Source of the DNA: Methanoculleus caldifontis
Lineage (GTDB): Archaea > Halobacteriota > Methanomicrobia > Methanomicrobiales > Methanoculleaceae
Direction: 5' to 3'
NCBI RefSeq assembly: GCF_032842345.1
Contig: NZ_WBKO01000001.1
Coordinates: 744,001-808,000 of the forward strand
Length of the DNA stretch: 64,000 nucleotides
The notes below the pieces were generated by a model. The model saw only the letters and a list, made by a program, of their open reading frames with translations. It searched no databases and was not told the DNA's origin. Of this stretch, positions 2,780-57,611 are shown piece by piece; the first letter of the stretch is position 1, and the number at the start of each line of letters is the position of its first letter. Made by a program: the position numbers and the translations under genes.

Positions 2780-3280
2780 ATGGCGATGAACGTCTCCCGA
2801 CTGAAGTACCGGGTCGGGGTCCTCGGCGACCGCAGCGGTCTCAAACGCTACGGCCCGTTCAACGGGCAGAAGGTGCGTGAGTTCTTTGAGGTCGAGGAGA
2901 GCCACGGCAGGACCGCCCGGATAGTGCGGCTGGAGGAGGGGCTCCGGGAGCGGCTCACCGCCGCGGTCGGAGCCCCGCGGCCGCAAAGACCTCCTCCGTC
3001 CCAACCCGCTCCATCATCTCGCCGAACCGCACCCCCTCCACCGCGACGCCGATCGCCTCCATGGGGCAGACGGTTATACAGTTGCCGCACCCGACGCAGT
3101 TCTCTTCCGCGTGGCGGGCCTCGCCGTCGACGACCCGGACCGCCCCCTCACGGCAGACCGTGCCCTTGCAGCCGACGACGGAACGGGGGGCAGCACCGGT
3201 GCTCCCCGGCTCTATCCCGGCCTCCCGGAGCCTCGCCGCGACCACGTCCCGCCGGTCGACGCCGGGGATCTCGACGTTGA
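2780..3280 (+). CDS. hypothetical protein, probably damaged at its 3' end
   Basis: The first ~60 codons (starting M-A-M-N-V-S-R-L-K-Y) have the strong G/C third-position bias of genuine genes here and a normal mixed composition. From about 2960 the frame turns Pro/Arg/Ser-rich, exactly where it begins to run antisense to the sulfite-reductase-like remnant. The original stop was probably lost when the two converging genes were fused by deletion. I do not recognise the N-terminal part. The start could also be the Met at 2786. There is no strong ribosome binding site. Confidence 0.35.
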   Translation: MAMNVSRLKYRVGVLGDRSGLKRYGPFNGQKVREFFEVEESHGRTARIVRLEEGLRERLTAAVGAPRPQRPPPSQPAPSSRRTAPPPPRRRSPPWGRRLYSCRTRRSSLPRGGPRRRRPGPPPHGRPCPCSRRRNGGQHRCSPALSRPPGASPRPRPAGRRRGSRR

Positions 3281-3368
3281 GCCGGGCAGTCAGCCCGGTC
3301 GTGCCGTCCCGAACTCCTCCGCTATCCGGGCCACCGCCGCCATCTGCGCTGCGGTCATCACACCGGCG
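2955..3368 (-). pseudogene. sulfite reductase-like (Dsr-LP type) ferredoxin protein, decayed
   Basis: Two reading frames together resemble the small siroheme sulfite-reductase-like proteins of methanogens. The upstream frame gives M-T-A-A-Q-M-A-A-V-A-R-I-A-E-E-F-G (about 3345-3305). The downstream frame continues D-G-T-T-G-L-T-A-R-L-N-V-E-I-P-G-V. Adding one G to the GGG near 3308-3310 joins them perfectly, so this is a one-base deletion. Further on, G-C-K-G-T-V-C keeps one cysteine pair, followed quickly by a ferredoxin-type motif C-V-G-C-G-N-C-I-T-V-C-P. The second siroheme cysteine motif expected between them is missing, suggesting an internal deletion. Homology starts right at the edge of the CRISPR-like repeat. 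Confidence 0.65.
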
Positions 3369-3457
3369 ATGACTCTCCCCCGCGTGGGGGTGAGCGGGGT
3401 ACGGGAGCACTCATGAGCCGGTCGAGCGCATGGCTTTCCCCCGTGTGGGGGTGAGCG
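3369..3457. CRISPR. two-repeat CRISPR-like remnant, 61-bp period
   Basis: Two 28-bp units at 3369-3396 and 3430-3457 agree at 25 of 28 positions (differences at unit positions 4, 7 and 15). Each contains CCCCCG(C/T)GTGGGGG, a stem-loop, and ends TGAGCG. The start-to-start distance is exactly 61 bp, giving a 33-bp interval. Length, internal palindrome and period match type I-E arrays. No third unit is found 61 bp away on either side and no cas gene is in the window. It could be an array remnant, a solitary mini-array, or two diverged hairpins; the exact period favours the first two. Confidence 0.45.
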
Positions 3458-3493
3458 CAAACCGCATATACCCCCGCCCCCGATACCAGAAGG

Positions 3494-5518
3494 ATGAACC
3501 TCCTGCTGCAGGCGTACGACGTCCTCCTCTGGGCCGGTCTCCTCAAAGGCCTCCAGCTCGCTCTCTGGCCCCGCCTTCGCCCGGCGCTCGGGGACCTCGC
3601 CTACCCCGCGGCCTATCCGGCCTCCCTCCTCATCTTCGCCCTCGCGACCTGGTACTGCGGCCTCCTCCGCGTCCCGGTCGCCCTCGCCCTCCTCGTCTTC
3701 CTCGGCCTCGGGGTCTACGGCATCCGGCGGGGGGAGTACCGCCTCCGGGAACTCCGGGGGCTCCTTGCCTGGGACGCGGTCTTCCTGGTCGGATTCCTCT
3801 TCGCGCTCTCCGTCCGGTTCGCAAACCCGGTCATCAACTACTATAGCGAGCAGTACATGAACCACGCCTTCCTCGCGAGCGTCATCCGCGAGCCTGTCGT
3901 GCCGCCGCTCGACCCCTGGTTTTCCGGCGGGCACCTCACCGTCTACTACTACCTCGGCCACTGGCTGATGGGCTCTCTCGCGATCGTCACGGACATCCCG
4001 TCGGAGGTGGCCTTCAACCTGGTGCCGGCGACCGTCTACGGGACGGCGTTCGTGACCCTCTACGCCCTCGCGACCCTCTTCCTCCGACGCTGGCGGTGGT
4101 TGCCGCTCGCGGTCCTCCTCCTCGTCCCGCCCTCGGTCCCCTGGCTCCTCGCCGCGGGCGGAGACCTCTACTCGGCGCTCCAGGACACGAACTGGATCAT
4201 CGCGGGCGCCCGGTTCGAGTTCCCGGTCTTCTCCCTCCTCCTCGGCAACGTCCACGCCTTCGAGATGGCCGCGTTCAACCAGGTCTTCCTCATCTTCCTC
4301 CTCGGGTTTGCATGGTTACGGTGGAGCGGGCTCGATACCCGCGGGCGTGCCGGCCTCGCCCTCCTCGTCGCCCTCTCCATCGGCTCGATGCCGCTCCTCT
4401 CCTCCTGGGACGCCCTCGTCTACGGCCCCGTCGTCGCGGTCTTCCTCCTCGGACTCTTTCTCCGCGAGCGGGACTGCTCGACCCTCGCCGCCGCCGTCGC
4501 CATCCCCGCGACCGCCTTCGCGATCTACCTCCCCTACTACCTCGCCCTCGAGCCCGCGGGGATCGGGGGGATCGGGACGGGGTTTCCTCCCACCGACCCG
4601 CTCGCCTTCCTCGCGGTCTGGGGCGGGTTCCTGTTGATCGTCTATCTCGCCGTCGCGCGGGACGTATGGCGGTCCCCCTTCCTCGCCGCCGTCGCCGTCC
4701 TGCCGCTTGCCGCCGGCTACGTTGCGCTCGGCATCGTCGCCGTCCCGCTCGCCTATCTCCTCCTCCGGCGGGAGCGCTCGTTTGCCGACCTCCTCTGCAT
4801 CGCCGGGCTCGCGGTGCTCGGCCTCTGCGAGGTCTTCTACCTCAAAGAGCTGCTCAGCGGGGATTACAGCCGGTTCAACACCATCTTCAAGTTCTACTTC
4901 GACGCCTGGATCCTTCTTGGGACCGGCGCCCTCCTCCTCGCCGGGGGGTGGCTCAGCGCCCGGCGCCCGGTCCTCCCGGAGGCGGCACGGAAGGGGGCTG
5001 CCGTCGTTGCGGCCGCCGCCCTCATCGCCGCCCCGGCGGCCCTCGAGGTCGATATCGGCCGGGGCCTGCTCGGGATCGAGTACCCGCCGGCGGGCTACGG
5101 CACCCTCGACGGCCTCGCCTACCTGGAGGCCACCCGGCCCGGCGAGGCCGCGGCGATCGCGTTCCTCCGGACGCTCGACGGCGGCCACGTGCTCGTGGAG
5201 GCGGAGAACGGGGATTACAGGTATTACTCGCGGGTCTCGTCGTTCACCGGGATCCCGACGATCCTCGGCCAGACCGGGCACGAGCTGACCTGGCGGGGGA
5301 ACGGGGCGTGGTATGCGGAGCGGCCCGCCGACATCCGGGCGATCTACGAAGACCCGGAGAGGACCCTCGCGCTGATGGCGAAGTACAACGCGACCCTCCT
5401 CTACGTCGGAGAGCCGGAGCGCGAGCGCTACGACGTCAGGCTCCCGGAGAGCGGGCTCGTCCCGGTCTACGATCGCGACGGGGTCCGGATCTTCGCGCCG
5501 GAAGGACAACCTTTATAG
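3494..5518 (+). CDS. DUF2298 (YYY-domain) polytopic membrane protein
   Basis: This is a 674-residue integral membrane protein with many hydrophobic segments throughout residues 1-500 and a soluble C-terminal domain of roughly 170 residues. The signature T-V-Y-Y-Y-L-G-H-W near residue 153, preceded by D-P-W-F-S-G-G-H-L, identifies the Chlor_Arch_YYY/DUF2298 family. Members resemble GT-C type glycosyltransferases, but no activity is assigned. The last part (A-E-N-G-D-Y-R-Y-Y-S-R-V near 570) also fits the family. The start has no strong SD and lies 36 bp after the CRISPR-like unit. A TATA-like element for the next gene sits in its last codons. Confidence 0.85.
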   Translation: MNLLLQAYDVLLWAGLLKGLQLALWPRLRPALGDLAYPAAYPASLLIFALATWYCGLLRVPVALALLVFLGLGVYGIRRGEYRLRELRGLLAWDAVFLVGFLFALSVRFANPVINYYSEQYMNHAFLASVIREPVVPPLDPWFSGGHLTVYYYLGHWLMGSLAIVTDIPSEVAFNLVPATVYGTAFVTLYALATLFLRRWRWLPLAVLLLVPPSVPWLLAAGGDLYSALQDTNWIIAGARFEFPVFSLLLGNVHAFEMAAFNQVFLIFLLGFAWLRWSGLDTRGRAGLALLVALSIGSMPLLSSWDALVYGPVVAVFLLGLFLRERDCSTLAAAVAIPATAFAIYLPYYLALEPAGIGGIGTGFPPTDPLAFLAVWGGFLLIVYLAVARDVWRSPFLAAVAVLPLAAGYVALGIVAVPLAYLLLRRERSFADLLCIAGLAVLGLCEVFYLKELLSGDYSRFNTIFKFYFDAWILLGTGALLLAGGWLSARRPVLPEAARKGAAVVAAAALIAAPAALEVDIGRGLLGIEYPPAGYGTLDGLAYLEATRPGEAAAIAFLRTLDGGHVLVEAENGDYRYYSRVSSFTGIPTILGQTGHELTWRGNGAWYAERPADIRAIYEDPERTLALMAKYNATLLYVGEPERERYDVRLPESGLVPVYDRDGVRIFAPEGQPL

Positions 5519-57341: not shown

Positions 57342-57439
57342 ACTTCGCGGCTTCGCGGCTTCGCGGCTTCGCGGCTTCGCGTGAGGCCGTATAACATCCT
57401 CGCGGGTTAGCTCACGCGAAGCCGCGAAGAACGCGAAGG
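57342..57439. repeat. dispersed palindromic repeat, family A, with tandem octamers
   Basis: The left arm contains five tandem copies of CTTCGCGG/T (about 57342-57382) before GAG. The right arm CTCACGCGAAGCCGCGAAGA (57411-57430) continues ACGCGAAGG. The tandem expansion shows that the octamer inside the palindrome can multiply. Confidence 0.8.
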
Positions 57440-57471
57440 GAAGGTTATGAGTTGTGAACAACTATGGGGAG

Positions 57472-57500
57472 TCGCACCTGCGGTGCTCCAACCCCGCTCC
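57472..57500. repeat. short hairpin repeat, family B
   Basis: TCGCACCTGCGGTGCTCCAA followed by CCCCGCTCC is the cleanest family B copy. Confidence 0.6.
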
Positions 57501-57512
57501 TGTAGACCGTCG

Positions 57513-57581
57513 CTCTTCGCGTGAGGTAATCCACTGTGGAAACCGGGATTAGTCTCGCGCGAAGCCGCGAAAAGCGCGAAG
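57513..57581. repeat. dispersed palindromic repeat, family A
   Basis: The left arm CTCTTCGCGTGAG (57513-57525) and the right arm CTCGCGCGAAGCCGCGAAAA (around 57554-57573) followed by GCGCGAAGG form the second family A unit in this gap. No gene is supported in 57250-57611. Confidence 0.7.
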
Positions 57582-57611
57582 GATACGGGGAAAAGCTGAT
57601 GCCCTGATGTA

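Follow-up and report, generated by a model that had tools for sequence, protein, structure and literature searches.

A probable footprint of off-target CRISPR spacer integration upstream of a DUF2298 gene in Methanoculleus caldifontis

How does a pair of near-identical repeats with the geometry of a clustered regularly interspaced short palindromic repeat (CRISPR) array come to lie between two ordinary chromosomal genes? The question arises at positions 3,369 to 3,457 of a 64,000-nucleotide stretch of the methanogenic archaeon Methanoculleus caldifontis (contig NZ_WBKO01000001.1, positions 744,001 to 808,000; hereafter the window), where an earlier note, made from the sequence alone, had described a CRISPR-like remnant with the period of type I-E arrays and had taken it for a stranded or solitary array. 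We consider it probable, though well short of certain, that the pair is instead the decaying footprint of a one-spacer "neo-CRISPR", left by off-target spacer integration by the Cas1-Cas2 integrase of the resident type I-E system.

The anatomy described in the earlier note proved exact. Unit 1 (3369..3396, plus strand; ATGACTCTCCCCCGCGTGGGGGTGAGCG) and unit 2 (3430..3457, plus strand; ATGGCTTTCCCCCGTGTGGGGGTGAGCG) are 28-bp direct repeats that agree at 25 of 28 positions, are spaced exactly 61 bp apart and would be the left and right copies of a duplicated target. Between them lies a 33-bp interval (3397..3429, plus strand; GGGTACGGGAGCACTCATGAGCCGGTCGAGCGC), the presumed inserted spacer. All three differences between the units are transitions, and each unit contains a hairpin with a C5/G5 stem (folding z = -2.5 and -4.4). 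The 33 bp following unit 2 belong to the native upstream region rather than copying the interval (30% identity to it), which rules out a simple tandem duplication and identifies the arrangement as a target-site duplication around an insert. Tandem Repeats Finder reported nothing at the locus, and an Rfam search returned nothing relevant.

The pair has no counterpart elsewhere in its genome. A 21-nt core of the unit matches twice in the window, as compared with no match in 100 shuffles, and the whole genome holds only these two matches; with two copies of the unit only, a dispersed repeat or mobile element is ruled out. Among 60 related genomes the core had no match at up to 3 mismatches, and a slightly looser pattern of the unit found, across 232 genomes of the order, one unrelated site only, a single site in another genus (G038) with no repeat surrounding it. 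Within a null sample of 949 kb of stretches from the same genome (with the type I-B array masked and the I-E array excluded), no other pair with a spacing of 61 was present, even at 22/28 identity, and blastn of the pair against sampled stretches gave only chance matches of 12-17 nt.

Where the units came from is indicated by the flanking genes. On its left the pair is flanked by a decaying minus-strand gene of the 4Fe-4S sulfite-reductase-like kind (2951..3382), recognized by collinear split matches in relatives, a 4Fe-4S domain and a weak TIGR02912 sulfite_red_C match, and on its right by an intact gene on the plus strand (3494..5518) encoding a DUF2298/Chlor_Arch_YYY membrane protein (PF10060, E 3.6e-85; TIGR03662, E 4.1e-128). 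The earlier note had placed the edge of the sulfite-reductase homology at the edge of unit 1; it in fact continues, ungapped, through 3382 and reaches 14 nt into the unit. Per-column identity across 18 orthologs is 90% at 3355-3368, 40% at 3369-3375, 91% at 3376-3382 (TCCCCCG) and 29% at 3384-3396. On the right, across 16 orthologs, it is 88% at 3458-3475, 66% at 3447-3457 and 19-48% further left, with 19% at the left end of unit 2 (3430-3436). The conserved element at 3458..3475 (plus strand) directly abuts unit 2, includes a TATA-like CATATA and may be the promoter of the DUF2298 gene. Because column-wise homology to relatives runs into both units, their outer halves are native to the locus: by this homology, the left half of unit 1 (3369-3382) is sulfite-reductase-like coding sequence and the right half of unit 2 (about 3447-3457) is DUF2298 upstream DNA. 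Positions 3384-3396 of unit 1 are the copied DUF2298-upstream half. No repeat pair is present in the orthologous region of 16 relatives; some relatives, such as L015, carry CCCCCGCG on the DUF2298 side as well. The sulfite-reductase-like gene has lost its start codon, N-terminus and upstream region at the junction and carries further internal deletions. Compared with the versions in relatives it lacks several segments, one of them about 200 bp at 3153-3161, and its match ends overlap by several bases, suggesting deletions between short direct repeats.

With regard to the interval, its 33 nt begin with G, whereas in the native DNA unit 2 is followed by C. Retention of ancestral DNA was rejected, as the similarity of the interval to ortholog DNA was reached by 65 of 300 shuffles, and the interval has no match elsewhere in its own genome. 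A native target, duplicated around a foreign insert of spacer length, is the anatomy that Cas1-Cas2 leaves.

The genome encodes an integrase of the appropriate kind. The earlier note was correct that the window contains no cas genes, and they went unseen because they lie outside it: contig C2 carries a complete type I-E system (Cas3, Cas8e, Cas11e, Cas7e, Cas5e, Cas6e, Cas1e and Cas2e) with open frames, followed by a leader and then an array, which Cas1e and Cas2e adjoin. The link to type I-E proposed from the period alone is thereby borne out, since the genome's own system has the same geometry (28 + 33, period 61), and of the two genome-wide searches that had been suggested, the one for type I cas genes succeeded and the one for the unit recovered its core only at the pair. 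The I-E array (C2:153946-156660) comprises about 45 repeats, GCGTTCCCCATGTACGTGGGGATGAACCG, with a period that is always 61; the repeat consists of 28 nt plus G, and all 43 of 43 complete inserts are 33 nt long with G as first base, when counting begins at the base after ...AACC. The final G of the E. coli repeat is supplied by the protospacer-adjacent motif (PAM) of the incoming spacer, so that each event duplicates 28 bp and inserts 33 bp. Cse1 is present in only 6 of 35 genomes of the genus. Four I-E arrays of the genus use GYGTTCCCCATGYRYGTGGGGATGAACCG with a conserved leader that ends in GGAATAAAAARGGATGA in 3 of 4; in those read beyond the genome's own, the leaders are alike and the repeats almost identical, and none resembles the unit.

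Other features of the CRISPR loci were noted in passing. In the I-E array, the spacer GACACGGACATCGCCAACCCGGAGGGCTACGG is present twice in succession (L067:16050-16145) and the last repeat is degenerate. A second CRISPR array, with repeat ATTTCAATCCACACACCCGTGAAGG and a period of 65-70, lies at about 1,246,900-1,249,500 of contig C1 (L063:15942-18500) and adjoins a Cas1 gene (C1:1250297). At C1:1365913 there is another conserved Cas1 homolog, and almost every genome of the genus has a relative of it.

The unit also resembles the repeat that this integrase would recognize. When unit 1 plus the next base was compared with the genome's own I-E repeat, the best register fell at the exact unit boundary (15/29; next best 12), and a match of 15/29 or better occurs at only 212 of 1,895,520 genomic positions (1.1e-4, or about 1 in 9,000). 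The right halves compare as CGTGGGGgTGAgCg in the unit and CGTGGGGaTGAaCC in the repeat. The unit could fold in a manner suitable for Cas6e, but its presumed handle, GUGAGCGG, agrees with AUGAACCG at no more than 5 of 8 positions, and nothing suggests an active array at the pair. Four features expected of a neo-CRISPR are present, namely a 28-bp duplication around a 33-bp insert, native units, compatible Cas1e and Cas2e in the genome, and an in-register likeness of unit 1 to the repeat.

We infer the following history, with the integrase as agent. A single deletion of about 100 bp, probably at the TCCCCCG microhomology, would have fused the 5' part of the sulfite-reductase-like gene to the DUF2298 upstream region and created by chance a repeat-like palindrome, CCCCCGYGTGGGGGTGAGCG; none of the relatives carries this junction. 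The resident I-E Cas1-Cas2 may have taken the palindrome for a CRISPR repeat and attacked its two strands 28 bp apart. A 33-bp prespacer with G as first base would have been inserted and the 28-bp target duplicated by gap repair, giving a target-spacer-target product with a period of 61, and three transitions would have separated the copies afterwards. In a possible variant of this history, unit 2 would have been wholly DUF2298-upstream DNA and the deletion would have come later, which alters the sequence of steps but leaves the duplication-plus-insert anatomy unchanged. The product would probably serve no function at present.

Several observations weigh against off-target integration. Unit 2 aligns best with the I-E repeat 2 nt away from the boundary, the left stem arm of the unit lies 3-4 nt nearer the centre than in the true repeat, and upstream of the pair there is no I-E leader, its place being occupied by coding sequence. 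The empty, single-unit junction was seen in no relative, and the pair itself is a sample of one, seen in one genome only. Part of the resemblance to type I-E, in spacing and G-rich stem, was the reason that the earlier note picked the locus, and differences that preserve the hairpin also fit selection for the hairpin. The copies differ at 3/28 positions, so that the event must be old or the origin different. Finally, no source of the interval was found: its protospacer is absent from the 232 genomes at up to 3 mismatches, its exact sub-patterns are unmatched in viral and genome collections, and the comparison with phage and plasmid records that the earlier note had proposed gave no credible match, such that these searches identified the interval as a copy of no chromosomal, viral or plasmid sequence. 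The units have diverged by 10.7%, however, much as the locus has from that of the nearest relative (about 10%), so it is to be expected that the source of so decayed a spacer can no longer be traced.

Repair without any CRISPR component is the alternative that survives best, and we regard it as unlikely yet deserving of serious weight. A break at the junction could have been mended by staggered fill-in or template switching that copied 28 bp and supplied 33 bp of filler; the division into 28 and 33 would then be a coincidence. That the same pseudogene shed other segments at short direct repeats, as its split, overlapping matches suggest, is consistent with such an origin, as is the presence of other isolated short duplications in the genome, and the C5/G5 palindrome could stall replication. 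This explanation nevertheless requires three things to have arisen by chance: the 28/33 split, a G at the start of the insert, and a match to the I-E repeat in register (about 1.1e-4 per position). The filler, moreover, is unmatched elsewhere in the genome.

It is improbable, in our estimation, that the pair is a functional hairpin or operator pair that controls the DUF2298 gene, is kept by selection and only looks like CRISPR. The location directly upstream of the conserved TATA-like element would suit such a role, and the hairpins are strong, with all three differences preserving pairing (one G.U, one gained pair and one loop change). Selection cannot be demonstrated from only three differences, however; the pair is missing from all relatives with a readable orthologous region, there is no such site elsewhere in the genome, and the similarity spans all 28 bp, non-palindromic ends included. 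We give a slightly smaller chance to a combination of the two ideas, in which an off-target insertion was kept for a regulatory role of the new hairpin pair at DUF2298; a regulatory use upstream of that gene is not supported. Least credible of all is the earlier note's reading, a relic of a genuine type I array, possibly a foreign one. The period of 61, the hairpin and the placing of a spacer-sized interval between two units do recall such an array, but the reading is contradicted by unit halves that are native to the locus, by the lack of a leader and by a unit that differs from the genus repeat GYGTTCCCCATGYRYGTGGGGATGAACCG with its conserved leader and is not used as a repeat by any array across 232 genomes of the order, this one included. 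Of the two outcomes which that note had said would refute an array, no similar repeat in any array and conservation of the hairpins across species, the first was found and the second was not.

How does off-target integration at this locus compare with known systems? A 2018 study by Nivala, Shipman and Church (reportedly Nat Microbiol 3:310) is said to have described off-target integration by the E. coli I-E Cas1-Cas2 as "spontaneous CRISPR loci generation", and its abstract reportedly named putative natural cases in Yersinia pestis and Sulfolobus islandicus. Papers that cite this work (PMC11788318, PMC9456107) also report off-target events by the E. coli enzymes, and according to one of them (PMC11788318) an array grows by 61 bp with each new spacer. 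The Methanoculleus pair shares with the E. coli events a spacer-sized insert outside an array, a repeat-sized native duplication, a target that resembles the repeat and an I-E adaptation module in the same genome. Unlike them, it is natural and old and comes from a methanogenic archaeon; its protospacer was not found, it has no known integration-factor site, and it is seen in a single genome. It resembles its own I-E array in the period of 61, the 28-nt unit, the 33-nt insert with G first and the right half CGTGGGG.TGA.C, and departs from that array in a unit that matches the true repeat at 14/28 positions, a shifted left stem arm, no leader and one spacer. Its layout is that of orphan or mini CRISPR arrays with one spacer and two repeats, although its units are local chromosomal sequence.

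The genome also contains an unrelated family of dispersed intergenic hairpins (motif CTTCGCACCTGACGGTGCTC), rejected as a source of the pair, which differs from them in both sequence and period. In this family, CTTCGCACCTGACGGTGCTCAAACTCC alternates with stems such as GTTCCTGACGGAAC at a period of about 46-49 bp, and the stem arms vary together. Sites include L094:9990-10130, L113:10980-11090, L119:13960-14090, L090:14206-14480 and window positions 57470-57500. The last is flanked by a 29-nt direct repeat, CTCACGCGAAGCCGCGAAGAACGCGAAGG, at 57411-57439 and 57554-57582 of the window, 143 bp apart.

If our interpretation is correct, the pair would record a natural case of a CRISPR integrase writing into ordinary chromosome, in a methanogen that carries a type I-E system. 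Off-target integration is a proposed route to the birth of new CRISPR arrays. The kind of event is already known from E. coli experiments, and an archaeal I-E example from nature would usefully extend it. Such an example would also allow searches that presuppose no repeat sequence: one would look for 28 bp of native DNA duplicated on either side of a 33-bp insert whose first base derives from the PAM, in a genome with matching Cas1-Cas2. Were the insertion in addition kept for a regulatory role, an element of gene control lying away from every array would be the work of a CRISPR integrase.
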